This document shows, in pieces, positions 12,561 through 61,172 of a stretch of 64,000 nt of DNA. Below the pieces are notes generated by a model. It saw only the letters and a list, made by a program, of their open reading frames with translations. It searched no databases and had not been told where the DNA came from. Both the position numbers and the translations under genes were made by a program. Location of the stretch: assembly GCF_018143015.1 (NCBI RefSeq), contig NC_054754.1, positions 24,628,894-24,692,893 of the forward strand, written 5' to 3'. The stretch's first letter is position 1, and the number at the start of each line of letters is the position of its first letter. The stretch is from Lytechinus variegatus (Eukaryota; Echinodermata; Echinoidea; Temnopleuroida; Toxopneustidae).

Positions 12561-12632
12561 GCCTCCGTGGTCAAGTGGTTAAGGCATTGGCATTGAGAAC
12601 CAGGGACCTGGGTTCAATTCCCGGCAGAGGCA
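12561..12632 (+). tRNA. tRNA-like gene or pseudogene
   Basis: A 72-base unit that folds as a cloverleaf. The acceptor GCCTCCG pairs with CAGAGGC at six of seven positions. D-arm is GTC/GGC, the T-arm CTGGG/CCCGG has loop TTCAATT, and the A and B boxes look intact. The anticodon stem has a mismatch and a wobble pair, and the anticodon is unclear (TGA in one register, GAG in another). Both would imply a long variable arm, which is absent. A tRNA pseudogene or SINE head is more likely than a functional tRNA. Confidence 0.5.
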
Positions 12633-15816: not shown

Positions 15817-16316
15817 NNNNNNNNNNNNNNNNNNNNNNNNNNNNNNNNNNNNNNNNNNNNNNNNNNNNNNNNNNNNNNNNNNNNNNNNNNNNNNNNNNNN
15901 NNNNNNNNNNNNNNNNNNNNNNNNNNNNNNNNNNNNNNNNNNNNNNNNNNNNNNNNNNNNNNNNNNNNNNNNNNNNNNNNNNNNNNNNNNNNNNNNNNNN
16001 NNNNNNNNNNNNNNNNNNNNNNNNNNNNNNNNNNNNNNNNNNNNNNNNNNNNNNNNNNNNNNNNNNNNNNNNNNNNNNNNNNNNNNNNNNNNNNNNNNNN
16101 NNNNNNNNNNNNNNNNNNNNNNNNNNNNNNNNNNNNNNNNNNNNNNNNNNNNNNNNNNNNNNNNNNNNNNNNNNNNNNNNNNNNNNNNNNNNNNNNNNNN
16201 NNNNNNNNNNNNNNNNNNNNNNNNNNNNNNNNNNNNNNNNNNNNNNNNNNNNNNNNNNNNNNNNNNNNNNNNNNNNNNNNNNNNNNNNNNNNNNNNNNNN
16301 NNNNNNNNNNNNNNNN
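15817..16316. other. Assembly gap (N run)
   Basis: About 500 consecutive N. The round length suggests a gap of estimated or default size. Any frames crossing it are artefacts. Confidence 0.99.
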
Positions 16317-20339: not shown

Positions 20340-21545
20340 GTAATGACACATAACTCCACAACCGTAAGTCGCTTTTAAACCAAACATGGATGGTAGATGG
20401 ACCTGGGTGACCTGCATGTTGAGCTGCAGTCAGAGGTCACATGGTAAGGTCAAAGGTCATTTTCAGGTCAACGTTAAAGTTTACATGCAACACTTTTATG
20501 ACACCTAACTCCACAACCGTAAGTCGCTTTTCAACCAAACTTGGATGGTAGATGGACTTGGGGGACCTGCATGTTATGCTGCAGTCTGAGGTCATATGGT
20601 AAGGTCAAAGGTCATTTTCAGGTCAACGTTACAGTTCACATGCAAGACTCTTATGACACCTAACTCCGCAACCGTAAGTCACTTTTCAACCAAACTTGGA
20701 TGTTGGATAGACTTGGGGGACGTGCATGTTATGCTGCAGTCAGAGGTCACATGGTAAGGTAAAATATCATTTACAGGTTAAAGTTTACATGCAAGACTCT
20801 TATGACACCTAACTCCGCAACCATAAGTCACTTTTCAATCAAACATGGATGGTCGATGGACTTGGGGGACCTGCATGTTATGCTACAGTCAGAGGTCACA
20901 TGGTAAGGTCGAAGGTCATTTTCAGGTCAACGTTAAAGTTTACATGCAGGACACCTAACTTCGCAAATGTAAGTCGCTTTTCAACCTAACATGGACAGTA
21001 GATGGACTTGGGGGACCTGCACATGTTACGCTGAAGTGGGAGGTCACATGATAAGTTCAAAGGTCATTTTCAGGTCAACGTCAAAGTTTACATGCAAGAC
21101 TCTCTTATGAAAACTAACTCCGCAACCGTAAGTCACTTTTCAACCAAACTTGGATGTTGGATAGACTTGGGGGACGTGCATGTTATGCTGCAGTCGGAGG
21201 TCACATGGAAAGGTCAAAGGTCATTTACAGGTTAAAGTTTACATGCAAGACTCTCTTATGACACCTAACTCCGCAACCGTAAGTCACTTTTCAACCAAAC
21301 TTGGAAGGTAGATGGACTTGGGGGACCTGCATGTTATGCTGCAGTCAGAGGTCACATGGAAAGGTCAAAGGTCATCTACAGGTTAAAGTTTACATGCAAG
21401 ACTCTCTTATGACACCTAACTCCGCAACCGTAAGTCACTTTTCAACCAAACTTGCAGACTTATGCTGCAGTCGGATGTCACATGGTAAGGTCAAAGGTCA
21501 TTTTCAGGTCAATATTAAAGTTTACGTGCAAGGCTGGTATGACAA
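20340..21545 (+). repeat. Tandem array, about 155-bp unit, with DR1-type nuclear receptor half-sites
   Basis: About eight diverged head-to-tail copies. Each begins near CCACAACCGTAAGTCGC, passes GGTAGATGGACTTGGGGGAC and GCAGTCAGAGGTCACATGG, and ends GTTTACATGCAAGACTC. Five copies carry a perfect AGGTCAAAGGTCA, at 20447-20459, 20602-20614, 21211-21223, 21362-21374 and 21488-21500; other copies have one or two changes. Two more AGGTCA half-sites recur in many units. AGGTCA-N1-AGGTCA is the consensus DR1 site for RXR, HNF4 and COUP-TF receptors. Binding is inferred, not shown. Confidence 0.85.
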
Positions 21546-29757: not shown

Positions 29758-30403
29758 GTAAGTTAAACTTATTTATAATTCTGATTCATTTTGGCATAGA
29801 AAGTAAGTCATAATAACAATTTGAATTATTTTTGTCTTCTTGATTTGCTCTTTGTCAGGAATCCAAATTTTAGAATTAAACTCTTAGTTTGAGGTGTTGA
29901 TGATTTTTTTTCAGCTGCAAAAGTAACAAACCAATATCAATCATTGGTCGATAATGTGACTTGCTTTCTCTTGCCAAATTGGTACATGTACATGTATATT
30001 CTGCATTTCTATAATGATTGACCCCACCACTAGCACATAAGATGCAACATGTCAAATAACTGTCAAACTCACTTCATCATGTATTTAATTATTAATATTT
30101 CATTAAAGGAGTAAAAGGACTCAGAAAGATTACCCGAAAAAGCTCACAGAATTTTTTTTACTGGTAGACCCTTTACATTCATTTGATGAATTGAGTTCAT
30201 GCAAAATCAACTGAATGTTATGAGTACAAAATCCTGTTAATACACCTTACTGTGAGGCTATTCTGGTAGGTCATCCCGGGAGTGCCTGAGGATCTTGTCC
30301 ATTTGGATAAATCTTGCAAAGTACCAAGAGGTGCCTCCACCCCCCCCCCCACTCTATTAAGGGTTAACAATGAAATTGAAATTAGGAATAAGTTTAGTAT
30401 CTT

Positions 30404-30910
30404 CCCGGGGGGGGGGGGGCACTCAGTATATAATGCATAGTGGGTATGTGCCGCGGAGGGGACCCCCATTTTCACACTCAAATTTCCGTTCCAAGGCATA
30501 GCATTTTTGCCTTGTTGATAAAAAGAACAAAGAAAGCCGCTCCAAGGCATAGCATTTTCTTCTTATCGAGAAAAAAGAAGAGGGAAATCCGCTCCAAGCT
30601 AGCATATTTTTCGTTACGCCGCTCCGATCGCATTGAACGAGTCGAATTTTGGTGAAAAGCGGCCGCAGAGCTCCCCCGGCGGAGGCCGCGCTAGCTGCAT
30701 CATGCACGCATGACCGTTCCGTGGGGATGCATACGCACTCACACGCTGGCGATCCGTTCCAAGGACCCCCGTTTTCACAAACATTTGTCGTTCCGAAGCC
30801 CGTTCCGAGGACCCTCCTTTTTACAATAAGCCCGCTCCAAGGCCCCCGTTTTTTGTCTCGCCCGCGGCACACCCCCACCACATTTTTGGTCGAGTGCCCC
30901 CCCCCCCGGG
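30404..30910. mobile_element. hAT-type MITE with internal periodicity, copy 1
   Basis: Ends CCCGGGGG...GGCACTC and GAGTGCCCCC...CCGGG are inverted. It is flanked by a perfect 8-bp duplication AGTATCTT (30396-30403 and 30911-30918). Eight bases is the hAT signature length. The 507-bp interior repeats a rough 30-bp phrase such as GTTCCGAGGACCCTCC and GTTCCAAGGACCCCC. Open frames on both strands come from the GC-rich repeats and show no domain. Confidence 0.88.
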
Positions 30911-30952
30911 AGTATCTTGCTCATATGCATTATAAATTAATTACTATTTCAG

Positions 30953-42975: not shown

Positions 42976-44642
42976 GAAAATTCCAAAATCTAATGCAGAG
43001 CGCAGACACTTTGATAACCCTGGACAACATAAATATGGGCTTAACTGGATAATGTTGCCACAAAGATATTGTTATACCCAAAATGCCAGATACAGCTTTG
43101 CATTGACTATATCTTGAGCAGTTGAGGCAGCCTCCGACCTCCAATACATGTAGCTGTGTGTGTGTATGCGGGCCGCGCGGGGGCCAGCGCCTGCCTGGGC
43201 CTGCAGTGGATATTTCGCTGTGCACAGCCAGCCCAGGGCAGTATAGATCTAACGTTAGATCGTACATGTATGTCTGGACTTCTCAACTAACGAGTATGTG
43301 GGCAGTTTTAATCCCAATGACAATTACGGTACCGTATTTGTACTTACAGATCATTTTGCATCCTTTGATTCATTCTGCTTTGATCGAAATTCAAATTTTG
43401 ACGTAAACAAGCGACGGTAACAGTACATGCGCGATGACATCACAATGACCTTTTCGGACGATTGCTTGTTTACAGTGGATATCGTTGCGTTTTGATTATC
43501 GGGATATCGTTCATGCAGCCCAGTAAAATTTTTGCATTGCTCTCAACCAATCAGATTGCAGGGATTTTCTCATCCATTACAACTATAAAAAGTTTTAAAA
43601 TTGCTAAAGATCCAGAGATATCAAAACCCACCTGCTGATTTAGCACTGGGGTACACAAGCCAGGGTTATGCCCAGTGCATGCCCCCCGAATGTTCTACGT
43701 ACAACCAAGATATAAAAAAATGAAGGGAATTAAAGAAACCAAAATTAGGAAAAGTGTAAGGTAAGATATCTGTCTCAAATTTAGATTTGCACGAAAGGTT
43801 TTTTCTCGCTTGCTTCATTCGCTTGGAACATATAAAGCAACTTTATTCCCACGTGCCATATGTTTCGGCCTCTTTCTTTCTACTATTTCATTTTTTTTAC
43901 TCATCATGCTCCTGCCACACAGGGGTTTGCCCTAATGCATGAACAATCATTAAAAAATATCATTTTTCATGTGACTGGGAATTTTTTGCTCTACCCCTCC
44001 CCCCTCCTCGATCCCTGTATCGATTTGACTTGACATGGGCCTATACCTGATGTATTCTGCTTCAATATAAAATCATAACGGATAGAACGCCTTGAATACA
44101 GGCCAAACAGCCTAACGACACACACACACACACATTGCCGTGTCACGTGACAATCAGTATTAAACGAGGATGTGTACAACCCTATGGCGACAAGGCTAGT
44201 CGCAAAAGTTGAGCAAGTTCTGGACGAATAGGCTTCAATACCCCAAGAAAAGAAGTAGTATCTAGGGACTAATTAAAAATAGTTTTCTTAATGGAGTTCC
44301 ATGTTAAAATCTAGTAATTTAAGTCCAACTTTTAATTCGCGTGCACTCACTTTTTTAACACAGGAATTAATAGGCACGGTGCCTAGAGTGTCATCTACCA
44401 ACACACCTAAATTTAAAAAAAAAACAATCAAATATATTTCAATTTATTGCACTGAAACCAAGTGGGGGTGGGGGGGGAGGCAGGCAAATCAATGGACAGG
44501 TGGAACGCTTAATGCCCCCTCCGGACTTTGTCTGCGAGAGCATAATTACAGAGGAGCTGAATTTGAAGAGGGCCTGAATCAAGACTGAAACATCGCAATA
44601 CGTGTAAGTGGAGTAGGCTAGGGCACTCACACTAGTACGAGG

Positions 44643-45194
44643 CCGGGGGGGGGGGGCACTCAGTATATAATGCATAGTGGGTATGTGCCGCGGAGGGGAC
44701 CCCCATTTTTACACCCAAATTTCCGTTCCAAGCCAAGGCATAGCATTTTTGTCTTATTGAGAAAAAAACAAAGAAAGCTGCTCCAAGGCAAAGCATTTTG
44801 TTCTCATCTAGAAAAAAGAAGAAATTCGCTCCAAAGCTTCGCATATTTTTCGTTACGCCATTCCGGTCGCATTGATCTGCTGCAATTTTGGTGAAAAGCG
44901 GCCACAGAGCGCTGTCCGACCATCGTCTCTGAGCGAGCGCACCGGCAGAGGCTGCGCTAGCTGCATCACGGATGCCCGTTCCATAGCCTATAGGGATGCA
45001 TACGCACGTACTCACACGCTGGCGATCGATCCGTTCCAACTTCCAAGGACCCCCATTTCACAAAATTTTAGTTCCAAACCCCGTTCCGAGGACCCTCCTT
45101 TTTACAATACTCCCGCTCCAAGCCCAAGGCCCCGTTTTTGTCTCTCCTGCGGCACATCCCCACCACTTTTTTGTTCAAGTGCCCCGGCCCCGGG
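44643..45194. mobile_element. hAT-type MITE with internal periodicity, copy 2
   Basis: Same family as 30404-30910: G-run then GGCACTCAGTATATAATGC at one end, and a GTGCCCC run at the other. Flanks GTACGAGG (44635-44642) and GTATGAGG (45195-45202) match at seven of eight bases, a diverged 8-bp duplication. Interior repeats GTTCCGAGGACCCTCC-like phrases. Confidence 0.82.
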
Positions 45195-45283
45195 GTATGA
45201 GGTTAGTGAGGCTGGGTAAACTTGCGCCAAGTTGCGGCCAAGCCCGCCCAACATGCCCAAACTGTTGAATAAATTTGTTATTT

Positions 45284-51109: not shown

Positions 51110-51483
51110 ATTTAGGATTTGAGGGGCGGGGCGACAGTGCACCTGTTGCAAGAACTTGTCAGTACACCAATCACTATAGCGCTCTCAAAAAAGACTCCAG
51201 TGACGTTTTCTATTGACATCGGACACGCATAACCGGTTCGAGGGGATCCCATGACAACACAATCTAGCAACAGACGCCGGCTGCTATTGACCATCCCGTG
51301 TGTTCACGCAACCAAGCACTGTTATTGTTCTAGCGACCTATACACGCGGGAGAAGAACACCCACTCCCGCGACAACCCATCATCAGAAAAAAGAGAATAT
51401 CATCGTCAAACAGCTGGATATTTGGTGCATTTAAAGGAATATTTGTTAATGAAATGGAGGTGTAAATACACGCATTTTTCAAG
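51110..51483 (+). promoter_or_regulatory. TEKTL1: Probable promoter and 5' UTR of TEKTL1, with an overlapping upstream ORF
   Basis: This is the sequence just before the TEKTL1 start. It is less AT-rich than its surroundings and repeat-free. A 78-codon open frame starting at 51251 ends in a TGA at 51485-51487, overlapping the TEKTL1 ATG cluster. If the transcript starts upstream of 51251, this frame could affect initiation at TEKTL1. No TATA box is clear. Promoter status is inferred from position only. Confidence 0.4.
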
Positions 51484-51882
51484 ATGATGATGTCCACACG
51501 CACCCGTACCCAAATGCCCCTTGCCACGGCGACGGTCGGCCCACAGAGCTGGAGCGATGCTACGGTGAATGAGATTAAAATTTCGCAAGCGGCTGTGGAA
51601 AAAACAGACACGGGCCAAGAAGCCGGACGTTCTTTCGATGCCTTGCCATCCCTTCGAGATAATTGTGCTCAGCAAAGTAATACAGTCGTTCACCAGTATG
51701 TCAGGGAATGCAGAATATCACTTGTCAAACTCCGGGACAGTTTTCTTGAAACCAATGAAGAAGTCAAAAGTTTATTACGCGGGAAGGAGGCGCTGGAAAA
51801 GAAACTGGAACACATTCGAAAAGACATTGCACTCAATAAGATGAGCACAGAAATCAGAAGCACACGACCATCAAGAGAAAGG
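51484..51882 (+). CDS. TEKTL1: Tektin-like protein 1 (TEKTL1/CCDC105), exon 1
   Basis: First coding exon, 133 codons, starting MMMSTRTRTQMPLATATVGP and ending before a GTAATC donor in phase 0. The start is the first ATG after an in-frame TAA about 20 bases upstream. Two further methionines follow directly. The exon encodes a polar N-terminus, then an alpha-helical stretch (VNEIKISQAAVEKTD, later LVKLRDSFLETNEEVKSLLR, GKEALEKKLEHIRKDIALNK) with heptad-like spacing as in tektins. TEKTL1 is a tektin-fold protein found in the lumen of sperm doublet microtubules in mammals. The family call rests on the later exons and this coiled-coil pattern. Confidence 0.85.
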
Positions 51883-54079
51883 GTAATCTATTATAACTAG
51901 ATTTTAATTCGTCATGAGGACGAATTAGGTGGTCTGTCATGAATTTTCATTCAGTGTCGGCTAATGTTGTATGAAATGAATTACTTAGATATGATTGATA
52001 ATCTTGATCATACACATCATAGGACTAAATTTAGACCATTCCTATATGTGATTATTAATGTGGGGATGACAATCGTGATGAGTATAATGATGGTGGTTAT
52101 AATACAATACGTTAAATATGAAATGAAGTTTGGAGCACGTTAAACGCCTTAAAAACTCTTAAAATCGATTTTTACCAAAATTGACATTCTAAAATTGTGC
52201 AACGAAAGGCGCCTTAATCTTAATTTCCACAGCAGCTAATTTTTAATCAACAGTTTTATGTTTTTTTTGTGCAAAATCTTTTTAAAAACCCTTTGTACTG
52301 TTAGCACTTTTTTTCAAGATTTCAAGCAAGAATTTTTACAATTTTAGTGGGTATAAATTTCACAGAATACATGAAAATTCATAGGTGATACTTTTTAAAA
52401 CTAAAATATGTTTAAAACTTTTGTTCAAAATTTCTTCTAAATTTCTATCATTTTAATTAGAAATTTCTGAATCACAATGCTTCAGTTTCCCAGCATTCAC
52501 TTAAAAACTGATCAGCGATGTTTTCTATGAAAAAATGACGTAGAATTTTGTTGTAAAAGTTTGCAAAATTCTGAAAATTTCTAAAAATTTCACATTTTTA
52601 CCATCAAGAATTTTCAATATCCATTGATTAATTGAGTATGACTGAAATTTACTTGAAAATTCTTTCGTGATGATTTTTAGTGAAAAAAGGTAAGGTAAAA
52701 GATCAAAATACAAGCAATTTTCCCGCAAAATTAACGAATTTGCACAATTTTTAAAAATTTCATATAAGGTACCTGCAAATTTGTTATACATTATATTCAA
52801 TAGAAATGACCACAAAAAAAAAAAATCCGGGAATTTCCACAAAATGTCTGGAATAAAATTTTTCCACCAAATAGCGTTTCAATATTGTAGCGTTTACTCA
52901 GAAAATACATAAATGATGTTTTACAATGTTAAAATTACCTCTTAAAGAGTTCCGGAAAATATACAAAAAATGTCGTACATGAAAAAGTGCAAAACCAGTG
53001 GGCTTGAAACTTACAGGAAGACCGTAAAATTGATTAATAAAACATTTTCTCTAAAAAATTCTCAAAAATTAGGCCGAGAAAAATTTTGCAAAAACTTAAA
53101 CAGGTCACAAAACATTGATGCTGCGGTAGTAAGTGAAAATTATTCACACGTTATTTGTAGAGAATTGTTTTGACTACATCATATCAAAATTTGAGAGAAA
53201 ACTGAGCACTAATAAAAAAGATACGGTCAAATATCTATAAATACATTGACGTATATTGCGAAAATGTGTAATTTTCATTTTTAACGTAATTTTGTAGTAA
53301 TAACGCAGTCTCCAGATGAGATATTCACTATATCCAAGAGTGAGGAAAAATTGGGGGTCAACGGACTCCTTGAAGAGCTACAGTGAATTTTATATAGGCA
53401 TATTTTGGGCCACTTTTGACTTATTTTGCGAGTTTGCACGCGCGTGTAAGGCACATTTGAATTGACGCGCATTTGCGTATTATTGGTCGTAAGAGGCTGA
53501 ATGAGGTATCAAATTAATCAGAAGATCATGGACGATGGACAGACACAAAATAAATGACGACTCGAAGAGGCATAGCGATGGTAGGAGCAAGAACGCGCAC
53601 GCATACCTGTGCGCGCGCAAATTCTTGACATGCTCAAAATGGCCTGAAACGTACCCAAACTTGACCACGGTTGATTTGGAAAATTTTTAAAATTTGACGC
53701 GCGCGTACGTGCGCGTCGTGACCTTTGCATGACCTTTGTTGACATGTCCTGATGACTTGTCACCTGAACTTGATATGATGCAAATATGGATGATTTTTTA
53801 TGATTAGTTGCGATGATATGATCAATCATTTAATTTTACAAAATGGCGCCTAGATGACGTCATCATGATTTGATAACCTTGAAAAGTTTCGTTTCGCATG
53901 TCCATAATGATTGCCATACATGACATGAAAATCAAGAAAATTGACATGCCCGATATTGAGATAAAGTGGTTACTAGCTTTGGCAATAAAAATAAAGAAAA
54001 TTCTGACGAATATAATAGGTGATCTGTCATATTCATGACAGACCACCTAATAATAAAGGAAAAAAAAAAAAAAAAGAGA

Positions 54080-54150
54080 GTCAAGCGAGGTTTGAACCAC
54101 CGACCCTAGCGTTACCAGGCAGATGCGTTATCCAGTCGACCACGATCTTC
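54080..54150 (-). repeat. tRNA-Thr-like pol III unit, junction 1
   Basis: On the minus strand it carries a perfect A box (TGGTCGACTGG), a B box (GGTTCAAACC), and an anticodon loop CTGGTAA that would give GGT (Thr). The order CTGGTAA...GGGTCGG...GGTTCAAACC follows threonine tRNA. The anticodon and acceptor stems have mismatches, so it is tRNA-derived rather than a working tRNA. An A-run adjoins it on the + strand. Confidence 0.6.
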
Positions 54151-55244
54151 CGGACAGACAGGGAGCGCAAAACAGGAAACATATTGTCAATGTAAATTGT
54201 TGCAAGTACAAAAATGTCATGATGACAAACCTAGTACAAATTCCAGTTTTGAGAATAGTACAAGCTTTAAAATGAAACAATGGACATATTGTCTAAAGGG
54301 TACATTCTAAGGTAAAACATATTTAAAATTTGGCGAGAAAAGACCAATATTTACGTAATTAGAATCAATTTACATGAGTGTTGTGACATCATGAAACAGA
54401 AAACACTAATTTTTAGTTCCGACGCCATGTTGATGACGTCACGATGTTTTTAAGGGTCAAATGTGGCATAAAATCATATCTCCAATTCATACTCTATTCG
54501 AATAGGAAAAAAAAATTTGGGGTCAACGGACTCCTTGAAGAGCTACAGTGAATTTTATATAGGCATATTTTGGGCCACTTTTGACTTATTTTGCGAGTTT
54601 GCACGCGCGTGTAAGGCACATTTGAATTGACGCGCATTTGCGTATTATTGGTCGTAAGAGGCTGAATGAGGTATCAAATTAATCAGAAGATCATGGACGA
54701 TGGACAGACACAAAATAAATGACGACTCGAAGAGGCATAGCGATGGTAGGAGCAAGAACGCGCACGCATACCTGTGCGCGCGCAAATTCTTGACATGCTC
54801 AAAATGGCCTGAAACGTACCCAAACTTGACCACGGTTGATTTGGAAAATTTTTAAAATTTGACGCGCGCGTACGTGCGCGTCGTGACCTTTGCATGACCT
54901 TTGTTGACATGTCCTGATGACTTGTCACCTGAACTTGATATGATGCAAATATGGATGATTTTTTATGATTAGTTGCGATGATATGATCAATCATTTAATT
55001 TTACAAAATGGCGCCTAGATGACGTCATCATGATTTGATAACCTTGAAAAGTTTCGTTTCGCATGTCCATAATGATTGCCATACATGACATGAAAATCAA
55101 GAAAATTGACATGCCCGATATTGAGATAAAGTGGTTACTAGCTTTGGCAATAAAAATAAAGAAAATTCTGACGAATATAATAGGTGATCTGTCATATTCA
55201 TGACAGACCACCTAATAATAAAGGAAAAAAAAAAAAAAAAGAGA

Positions 55245-55315
55245 GTCAAGCGAGGTTTGAACCACCGACCCTAGCGTTACCAGGCAGATGCGTTATCCAG
55301 TCGACCACGATCTTC
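55245..55315 (-). repeat. tRNA-Thr-like pol III unit, junction 2
   Basis: Identical in wording to the unit at 54080-54150, one repeat period (1165 bp) further on. A and B boxes are intact. Confidence 0.6.
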
Positions 55316-56408
55316 CGGACAGACAGGGAGCGCAAAACAGGAAACATATTGTCAATGTAAATTGTTGCAAGTACAAAAATGTCATGATGACAAACCTAGT
55401 ACAAATTCCAGTTTTGAGAATAGTACAAGCTTTAAAATGAAACAATGGACATATTGTCTAAAGGGTACATTCTAAGGTAAAACATATTTAAAATTTGGCG
55501 AGAAAAGACCAATATTTACGTAATTAGAATCAATTTACATGAGTGTTGTGACATCATGAAACAGAAAACACTAATTTTTAGTTCCGACGCCATGTTGATG
55601 ACGTCACGATGTTTTTAAGGGTCAAATGTGGCATAAAATCATATCTCCAATTCATACTCTATTCGAATAGGAAAAAAAAATTTGGGGTCAACGGACTCCT
55701 TGAAGAGCTACAGTGAATTTTATATAGGCATATTTTGGGCCACTTTTGACTTATTTTGCGAGTTTGCACGCGCGTGTAAGGCACATTTGAATTGACGCGC
55801 ATTTGCGTATTATTGGTCGTAAGAGGCTGAATGAGGTATCAAATTAATCAGAAGATCATGGACGATGGACAGACACAAAATAAATGACGACTCGAAGAGG
55901 CATAGCGATGGTAGGAGCAAGAACGCGCACGCATACCTGTGCGCGCGCAAATTCTTGACATGCTCAAAATGGCCTGAAACGTACCCAAACTTGACCACGG
56001 TTGATTTGGAAAATTTTTAAAATTTGACGCGCGCGTACGTGCGCGTCGTGACCTTTGCATGACCTCTGTTGACATGTCCTGATGACTTGTCACCTGAACT
56101 TGATATGATGCAAATATGGATGATTTTTGATGATTAGTTGCGATGATATGATCAATCATTTAATTTTACAAAATGGCGCCTAGATGACGTCATCATGATT
56201 TGATAACCTTGAAAAGTTTCGTTTCGCATGTCCATAATGATTGCCATACATGACATGAAAATCAAGAAAATTGACATGCCCGATATTGAGATAAAGTGGT
56301 TACTAGCTTTGGCAATAAAAATAAAGAAAATTCTGACGAATATAATAGGTGATCTGTCATATTCATGACAGACCACCTAATAATAAAGGAAAAAAAAAAA
56401 AAAAGAGA

Positions 56409-56479
56409 GTCAAGCGAGGTTTGAACCACCGACCCTAGCGTTACCAGGCAGATGCGTTATCCAGTCGACCACGATCTTC
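56409..56479 (-). repeat. tRNA-Thr-like pol III unit, junction 3
   Basis: Third copy, 1164 bp after the second (the A-run before it is one base shorter). The fourth, partial unit ends before this point, so no fourth copy exists. Confidence 0.6.
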
Positions 56480-57545
56480 CGGACAGACAGGGAGCGCAAA
56501 ACAGGAAACATATTGTCAATGTAAATTGTTGCAAGTACAAAAATGTCATGATGACAAACCTAGTACAAATTCCAGTTTTGAGAATAGTACAAGCTTTAAA
56601 ATGAAACAATGGACATATTGTCTAAAGGGTACATTCTAAGGTAAAACATATTTAAAATTTGGCGAGAAAAGACCAATATTTACGTAATTAGAATCAATTT
56701 ACATGAGTGTTGTGACATCATGAAACAGAAAACACTAATTTTTAGTTCCGACGCCATGTTGATGACGTCACGATGTTTTTAAGGGTCAAATGTGGCATAA
56801 AATCATATCTCCAATTCATACTCTATTCGAATAGGAAAAAAAATTTGGGGTCAACGGACTCCTTGAAGAGCTACAGTGAATTTTATATAGGCATATTTTG
56901 GGCCACTTTTGACTTATTTTGCGAGTTTGCACGCGCGTGTAAGGCACATTTGAATTGACGCGCATTTGCGTATTATTGGTCGTAAGAGGCTGAATGAGGT
57001 ATCAAATTAATCAGAAGATCATGGACGATGGACAGACACAAAATAAATGACGACTCGAAGAGGCATAGCGATGGTAGGAGCAAGAACGCGCACGCATACC
57101 TGTGCGCGCGCAAATTCTTGACATGCTCAAAATGGCCTGAAACGTACCCAAACTTGACCACGGTTGATTTGGAAAATTTTTAAAATTTGACGCGCGCGTA
57201 CGTGCGCGTCGTGACCTTTGCATGACCTTTGTTGACATGTCCTGATGACTTGTCACCTGAACTTGATATGATGCAAATATGGATGATATTTTATGATTAG
57301 TTGCGATGATATGATCAATCATTTAATTTTACAAAATGGCGCCTAGATGACGTCATCATGATTTGATAACCTTGAAAAGTTTCGTTTCGCATGTCCATAA
57401 TGATTGCCATACATGACATGAAAATCAAGAAAATTGACATGCCCGATATTGAGATAAAGTGGTTACTAGCTTTGGCAATAAAAATAAAGAAAATTCTGAC
57501 GAATATAATAGGTGATCTGTCATATTCATGACAGACCACCTAATT

Positions 57546-60167: not shown

Positions 60168-60461
60168 GTATGTGGTGTATCTTTAATAAATCATTTTTAT
60201 TCATTTGTAAATATATTTGTGAAACCCTTCTCTTCTGGAATCTTTTAGGGTTATTATTAATTTAGGAGTGGCATAGTTCAGAATTCTGAATTATTTAAGC
60301 TGATTTCATAGTTGGTTGAACAACTATTTGCATCTATTATTTTGCACTTAATCTCAGCCGTTGCAAATAGTTGTATTTGATTTAAAAGTTTGGAAATGTT
60401 TTTCTTAGCAAAATATTTGAAAACGATGTTTACATAGTGATATATATATATTTTCTTTCAG

Positions 60462-60920
60462 GTCCTAGATCAGTGCAGGAAGCGACTTAGCGCTGTCATC
60501 CAAGAAAGAAACAGGGTCCTAGACCTACTGTGCCATGCCGTCTCCTCCGTCAATGGGCGTGCTTCTCGCAACAGTGGACGCATCTCCCGTCAAGAGAAGA
60601 CCATGACCTTTGGTGGCAATGGCACAGGCTACACTCGTCAGATCAACCTGAATGTTTCGGAGTTGCTTGGTACTGGATCGTTGCCTCCTGATGGAGAGGA
60701 ACAAAATGGCTCCAACACACCCCCTCCAGATCCCCTAGGCCCGTTCACCCCAGAAGCAGCAGCTGCCATCGCTCAGGCCAGGGAAGCACGCCAGCGCTCA
60801 CAAGTCCTCCGCAAGGAAATCCGTGATGCCATTGAGAATACTCAGCAGTTGCAGCAGGCTGCACACAGAGCTGTTAATGATAGTCTTAATCAGAAGGTTG
60901 CTGAGACTGTCACACTGAAG
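60462..60920 (+). CDS. TEKTL1: TEKTL1 exon 3
   Basis: 153 codons after a TTTCAG acceptor, to a GTACAT donor, phase 0 at both ends. It begins VLDQCRKRLSAVIQERNRVL, continuing the helix. Then comes a loop rich in Gly, Asn and Pro (about residues 195-245 of the protein, with PPPDPLGPFTPEAAAAIAQA), and then a second helical run, RQRSQVLRKEIRDAIENTQQ and beyond. In tektins the helices are broken by such loops. The 'L-x-x-A-x-x-E-R-N-R' ending of the first helix resembles the tektin family. Confidence 0.93.
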
Positions 60921-61172
60921 GTACATTGGTTTATCATTCAATAAAATACTTACCTTGAATTCTTTTGTTTTATCAATGTTTGTCACACCGTCATATACTT
61001 TCAAGAGAATGAAATAAGAAACATTGATATGGGGTCGGGACAACTCGGACCTCGGGATATACTTTATTTCCAATCTTACATTAATGTCCTGCTTTGATCG
61101 TCATTATTGAAAGTACTACCTTGCCTATCCAAACTTTTGAACGTTCAACATTTTTTTTCTTTCCAATTTTAG

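Follow-up and report, generated by a model that had tools for sequence, protein, structure and literature searches.

A probable non-autonomous Helentron of Lytechinus variegatus with tandemly repeated 5' termini and a single 3' end

The ends of HINE/DINE-1 elements and their insertion between two Ts have been described by Thomas et al. 2014 (PMC4067079), and the parts of that report that deal with the purple sea urchin list Helentron proteins together with DINE-1-like elements that had been annotated as miniature inverted-repeat transposable elements (MITEs). In plants, Helitron arrays are known in which numerous 5' ends are accompanied by only one 3' end, and the model put forward for them is that repeated 5' ends recombine on a circular template (Xiong, Dooner and Du 2016, as cited in passages of PMC12628747, PMC8268682, PMC5148889, and PMC5876387). 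Helitrons arranged head-to-tail or in tandem have already been reported from animals as well, bats among them (cited in a passage of PMC5876387), and circles and read-through of the 3' end are reported in sections of the Helraiser study (PMC4778049). As far as these passages go, models of rolling-circle tandem arrays, and hence of satellite seeding, rest on arrays found in genomes and not on observed events. In this study, we analyzed an element located at positions 51897-57542 of a 64,000-nucleotide (nt) stretch of Lytechinus variegatus DNA (NC_054754.1, C15:24628894-24692893; referred to as the window). The element very probably represents a non-autonomous Helentron (HINE) that reads on the minus strand with the anatomy 5'-(A'B')3-A'-L'-3', in which the 5' terminus is repeated and the 3' end is not.

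Copies of the element were collected from the 869.6-Mb genome. Out of 791 first-look candidates, 40 were scored, resulting in 46 match rows at about 40 loci, and the 20 best-matching loci besides that of the window were taken for copy comparison (labels such as L009 denote loci). The features of the window copy, all on the minus strand, are as follows.

51897..57542, minus: whole element, very probably a non-autonomous Helentron (HINE), 5646 bp, inserted between two Ts (boundary common to 20/20 other copies, T on both flanks in 13/13, paralogous empty site L044)
51897..51900, minus: 3' terminal CTAG (copy comparison, coordinates)
51906..51926, minus: 3' palindrome, separated from the 3' terminus by 9 nt, with a loop of 5 nt and a stem of 8 bp, or of 9 bp if the outer A-T pair is counted (DNA fold)
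51926..51944, minus: 3' copy of the 19-nt subterminal inverted repeat, with 29 nt between it and the 3' terminus (perfect inverted pair)
51897..53342, minus: L', the single 3' segment (only short A/T-rich matches to B')
53343..54051, minus: A' unit 1, adjoining L', 5'-terminus hairpin ending at 54049
54052..54507, minus: B' unit 1; read in element sense, about 370 bp are followed by a tRNA-like stretch and by a T-run ahead of the next 5' terminus
54508..55216, minus: A' unit 2, hairpin ending at 55214
55217..55672, minus: B' unit 2
55673..56381, minus: A' unit 3, hairpin ending at 56379
56382..56836, minus: B' unit 3
56837..57542, minus: A' unit 4, outermost, with its 5' terminus at the host junction
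57509..57542, minus: 5' terminus TAGGTGG... with palindromic subterminal inverted repeat (subTIR), 15-bp arms (DNA fold, -13.1 kcal/mol, z -6.95)

A preliminary description, made from the sequence of the window, had drawn the element at 51923-57545 between perfect 22-bp inverted ends. The pair 51923-51944/57524-57545 is indeed perfect. On the left, however, the 26 bases outside the arm, ACTAGATTTTAATTCGTCATGAGGACG, which carry the boundary to CTAG at 51897, are common to all 20 other copies. On the right, where the boundary is 57542, the final three bases of the arm belong to the host and vary between copies, so only 19 nt of the pair are owned by the element. The pair is thus a perfect subTIR rather than a terminal inverted repeat (TIR): one copy forms the 5' extremity of the element, and 29 nt separate the other from the 3' end. 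In minus-strand order, the element starts directly after a host T with TAGGTGGTCTGTCATGAAT, which folds immediately into the 15-bp-arm hairpin, and finishes at 51897 with the subTIR, the small palindrome, AAAAT, and CTAG, followed by a host T. The folds of the outermost and the first inner hairpin reached -13.1 kcal/mol each, and that of the 3' palindrome -7.2 kcal/mol; for each of the three, none of 200 shuffled sequences was equally stable.

The spacing of the tandem units (1,165, 1,165, and 1,163 bp) agreed with the unit of about 1,165 bp described at first, as did the presence of a 15-bp-arm hairpin at each junction, and the 300-nt stretches that were compared were 96 to 100% alike. The polarity had to be reversed. 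Since the element reads on the minus strand, the repeated junction hairpin is its 5' terminus and not, as had been thought, its 3' terminus. Nor is an element end joined to a new start at the junctions. In element sense, the 456-bp segment B' comes before every inner 5' terminus, no junction of the window element contains a 3' terminus, and the only 3' end of this element lies in L'. As the multiplied end is the 5' end, the skipping of 3' ends proposed in the preliminary description does not explain the array. The general order in element sense can be written as 5'-(A'B')n-A'-L'-3', with n = 3 at the window locus.

The insertion site was examined in the copies for which both ends were available. 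In all 13, the host base in element sense was T on both flanks (L011 was entered by its outer ends, and L012 was omitted because it shares its flank with L009, the two being one duplicated insertion). The 13 joined flanks were then used as queries for empty sites. Places spanning the joint were obtained for L009, L014, L017, L023, and the window copy, and one place each was realigned. Four of these five paralogous empty sites (window, L009, L014, and L023) were clean, with one T fewer than the joined flanks and an otherwise unchanged joint; the place for L017 was 88% alike and noisy within an A-run. Insertion hence occurred between two Ts without target duplication beyond one T, and the AATT duplication that had been considered was absent. 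The empty paralogue of the window insertion (L044, C15:24111427) is located on the same chromosome. It was alike in 439 of 469 aligned columns, and positions 1-134 of the 160 in the query were matched. A TIR transposon with AATT duplication is largely refuted by the CTAG extension together with the clean empty sites. A canonical Helitron, with a 5'-TC start and insertion between A and T, was rejected given the TAGG start and the T on both sides in 13 of 13 copies. Within a tektin-like gene, the insertion lies 14 bp past a likely splice donor (GT at 51883); the frames 51466-51900 and 60441-60944, which flank the element, gave weak Tektin matches (E values of 1.6e-5 and 3.5e-6, both below the Pfam cut-off).

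In the genome, the 17-mer GGTGGTCTGTCATGAAT occurred 584 times (reversed control, 0), and the 3' end occurred 1,118 times at up to three mismatches, including exact matches to the loop variants CATGAG (77) and CATGCG (64); sister subfamilies may share the 3' end. No stop-to-stop frame longer than 117 amino acids (aa) lies wholly within the element. Pfam searches at E values up to 1 gave no match for two of the five frames of at least 100 aa, and the remaining three are copies of one that was scanned.

The subTIR, the 5' palindrome, the 3' palindrome with CTAG, and the insertion between two Ts place the element among Helentrons, so the preliminary guess of a Helentron/DINE-like element was right in kind, and the statement that it fits no known family is not supported. 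According to the passages of PMC4067079 that define HINE/DINE-1 elements, these share with our element the subTIRs, a palindromic subTIR (as in mite HINEs), a 3' palindrome, insertion at TT without target duplication, variable boundary Ts, the absence of coding capacity, and, in some copies, tandem repeats. The repeats described there are central, whereas each unit here includes the whole 5' terminus. Cg_HINE of Crassostrea gigas, as portrayed in parts of PMC7492417, likewise has HINE ends and arrays of few to many units in one fixed orientation, but its monomers measure 140 to 180 bp and lie between a left and a right flank, its 5' subTIR is in the flank, and its longest array has 29 monomers. 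The layout of several 5' ends and one 3' end, seen in the window, in the simple arrays, and at C1:2512626-2544559, is that of the plant truncated-Helitron arrays outlined in PMC12628747 and PMC8268682. The plant unit, however, is a truncated Helitron, whereas the unit here is a truncated element plus B', which is absent from single copies. Tandem Helitrons of bats and other animals resemble our arrays in being tandem and in animals, and the passage of PMC5876387 that cites them is silent on a layout with many 5' ends and one 3' end and on Helentron ends. FoHeli, a Helitron2 of Fusarium, shares asymmetric inverted ends of the Helitron2 type, a 5' hairpin, and joined ends that suggest a circle. 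The target given for FoHeli1 and FoHeli2 is different from that of our element, and in the sections of PMC5148889 concerned with them no long array of 5' ends is described, with three tandem copies in Metarhizium being mentioned. The literature on Helentron and Helitron arrays, echinoderms included, contained no report that we recognized as this element family, within a coverage that left out most subscription journals. Both the class and the multi-5' array are already known, and it is units of more than 1 kb with an added segment in a HINE that look new. What is combined here is HINE ends, multi-5' arrays of the plant type, and a segment found almost only in the array.

Certain observations weigh against the assignment to HINEs. 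The distances given for the subTIRs of mite HINEs in a portion of PMC4067079 are 2 to 4 and 38 to 60 nt, but here one copy begins the element and the other stands 29 nt away from its 3' end. Furthermore, no autonomous partner with the family ends (TAGGTGGTCTGTCATG, CTAG) was found in the flanks of the RepHel copies from C6, C16, C8, and one C4 piece, within which the own ends of those elements were not reached. RepHel genes themselves are present. PF14214 (Helitron_like_N) gave 14 genome matches, of which 11 had no stop inside the match and 8 were in frames of 3,149 to 3,508 aa, and a 698-aa RepHel query gave 23, ranging from 100% down to about 32% identity. In the frame on C6 (L037, C6:44353800-44358800), the Rep domain is preceded by two OTU stretches, a Herpes_teg_N-like stretch, and DUF6570. 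Helentrons commonly carry OTU domains. Regular-expression tests of the RepHel flanks returned nothing or resemblances with five errors only, including a subTIR-like stretch in L043. The best match between the 3' part of the family and the RepHel pieces was 14 nt long (E value of 0.001, C16 piece), and the C4 and C6 copies remain alike up to the edge of the C4 piece. In a comparison by eye among the 3'-end places listed (100 of 1,118), no exact or CATGCG form was located within 15 kb downstream of a RepHel position.

Unit number varied widely between copies. Among the 21 copies compared (the 20 loci and the window), n was 0 in seven (L009, L012, L013, L014, L015, L021, and L023), 1 in one (L026), 3 in two (window and L017), 4 in three (L019, L022, and L027), and at least 6 in five, whose arrays run beyond the 10-kb piece (L016, L018, L020, L024, and L025). 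The remaining three are nested (L010 and L011) or interrupted (L028). Outer 5' ends were exact at n = 0, 1, 3, and 4. The array sampled by L025 has 27 hairpin arms over C1:2512626-2542432, with 26 exact junctions and one 3' end at 2544525. In a second long array, at C1:75916183-75968245 (52 kb), a B' marker matched exactly 43 times, and a single 3' end with up to one mismatch is listed, at 75970544; over C1:75916183-75970578, the junctions match neither of the exact patterns used for B' and for the junction of 5' hairpin and B' (see below), hairpins were not seen, and one step of 4 kb is irregular. Plain satellite arrays lacking the ends had been named as contrary to an element. At 13 of 15 scored array loci, an exact 3' end is located about 1.3 to 1.4 kb beyond the array among the matches listed (100 of 1,118 places), one of the 13 (C5:43351689) having an irregular array start. 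The places listed do not decide the 3'-end status of C16:29930666 and C8:31807567, and no systematic search for end-less arrays was made.

Two junctions are unusual. The second junction of L024 (3791-3837, L-first reading) carries a doubled 5' hairpin, 46 bp apart, which is the sole such case among the compared copies. At the last junction of L028, another sequence that resembles a hairpin but is shorter comes after the 5' hairpin and may be a related 5' terminus from a different subfamily.

Segment B' is absent from all seven n = 0 copies and has only short matches to L', which rules it out as an L' fragment. A 22-mer marker of B' had 282 exact genome matches, and the junction of 5' hairpin and B' had 308 (reversed controls, 0); the junction pattern uses a shorter piece of B', so the two counts are not nested. 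Both counts link B' with the 5' terminus. Among the markers listed, 77 of the first 78 (to C4:7879374) lie in an exact junction, the exception being C4:1590948 (L050) with a mutated hairpin and a truncated B'. B' is thus almost confined to array junctions, and an independently dispersed repeat was rejected on the basis of these listed markers. A second B' marker with 286 matches represents partly another set of units, as it is absent from the array at C1:2513711, and shows a similar number only. In element sense, the tRNA-like stretch of B' is followed by a T-run just before the next 5' terminus. ARAGORN called nothing in B' with default settings and a poor tRNA-Val-like fold with a relaxed score, and an Rfam search over 51850-54600 gave one match, below the cut-off; the stretch is no standard tRNA. 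If a HINE, the element would be a non-autonomous Helentron that carries an extra segment with a tRNA-like stretch in every unit.

Most economically, B' would be a piece of host DNA that became trapped with a truncated 5' end upstream of it and a full copy downstream. At L010 (C1:3759502-3776639), an n = 3 element lies inside the T-run of the B' of another array, with the halves of that B' on either side. The interrupted B' belongs to another unit type, about 88% alike. T-runs of B' can therefore serve as targets, and the locus provides an empty site within the family. Speaking against a host origin, a host locus carrying B' intact and unduplicated was not found. At L050, A' adjoins positions 18-246 of B' only, and truncation accounts for this equally well.

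One genome here provides many similar copies in which n ranges from 0 to at least 26, together with exact ends and empty sites, so that a rolling-circle burst can be tested against unequal exchange. Units were kept for comparison at 93% or more of full length (80 A', 60 B', and 22 L'), and shorter pieces were dropped. A' units differed by a median of 0.14% within arrays, compared with 4.7% between arrays (means, 1.1% and 4.0%), and B' units by 0.45% compared with 2.0% (means, 1.6% and 4.7%). For the 72 A' units in multi-unit arrays, the nearest neighbor was in the same array in 48 cases, tied in 18, and elsewhere in 6; the corresponding values for 58 B' units were 37, 12, and 9. Variable sites were counted in eight simple arrays (window, L017, L018, L019, L020, L022, L024, and L027), leaving out 15 columns per unit edge and sets of three units and setting the nested L010 and L011 apart. 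Of the 33 inner sites that varied, 28 were singletons and 5 were shared, compared with 21.5 singletons expected under a model of neutral equilibrium. Including the misaligned edges and the three-unit sets, which cannot show shared sites, changed the counts to 41 and 7. Sites polymorphic in two of the eight arrays occurred only within 12 columns of a unit edge, where the alignment is poor. L016 had 31 singleton and 3 shared sites, mostly derived from one divergent A' unit. The pattern in the short arrays leans mildly toward founding from one unit, that of the long L025 array leans clearly toward exchange, and site patterns fall short of proving rolling-circle amplification.

Transposition of such an element would presumably be carried out by a rolling-circle RepHel protein supplied in trans. 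We give an even chance to a founder event in which transposition was initiated at a truncated 5' terminus located upstream, continued across host DNA (B', ending in the T-run), and stopped at the 3' end of another copy immediately downstream. The direct A' repeats would then allow A'B' to multiply, either by recombination between repeated 5' ends on the rolling-circle template or by unequal exchange; that a burst was the main route is a tentative proposal, rated somewhat short of even. Initiation at any internal 5' terminus might release shorter daughters, down to n = 0, and the case for this step is about evenly balanced. It seems rather unlikely that every internal 5' terminus is a working start, so that an n-unit locus emits a ladder of smaller daughters, and that the array of each insertion is founded anew from one unit, through rolling-circle amplification that takes place during or close to transposition. 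If it were so, the element would be a mobile, self-amplifying satellite with units of more than 1 kb, tens of kilobases long and with one 3' end.

A burst has several results to contend with. L019 alone contributes 15 of the 28 singletons, in the L025 array the shared inner sites outnumber the singletons by 38 to 17, a pattern that unequal exchange produces, and L016 and L024 share an identical A' and B' majority sequence while their L' segments differ by 0.9%, which indicates that units also move between elements. The identity of the element being the same, its arrays might have formed only by ordinary unequal crossing-over after insertion, with no part played by rolling-circle replication, and we regard this as close to an even prospect. 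It fits the sites in L025, the greater likeness of A' and B' units within arrays than between them, the one divergent A' unit in L016, and the doubled hairpin in L024, and the excess of singletons in the eight short arrays departs from it mildly only.

Nested insertion by itself, in which elements repeatedly entered the T-run before the 5' end of another copy and the internal 3' ends were lost afterward, is improbable. Nesting at B' does occur, as shown by L010 and by a second L' in L011. However, L' pieces are missing between the units of the eight simple arrays, loss of L' at one and the same base would not be expected of independent insertions, and, at a 40-bp cut, these arrays showed no junctions grading through partial L' sequences. 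The perfectly complementary 22-nt pair would suit a cut-and-paste DNA transposon or MITE whose internal satellite expanded, but the left arm is subterminal in 20 of 20 other copies, three bases of the right arm are variable host bases, the four clean empty sites lack a duplication beyond one T, and the two ends are unlike in structure, which makes this reading very improbable. Multiplication of one or two units by the assembler is the least credible of all, as the four A' units of the window differ at three inner sites, n varies between loci, and the flanks are unlike.

Apart from the element, the window contains a tandem array of a 155-bp unit (20343-21454, 7.3 copies) and a run of 500 Ns (15817-16316), which represents either a gap in the assembly or a withheld stretch. 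The regions 30218-30920 and 44632-45219 are alike by their translated frames and are perhaps copies of another mobile element. A tRNA-Ser gene with the anticodon TGA is located at 12561-12632.

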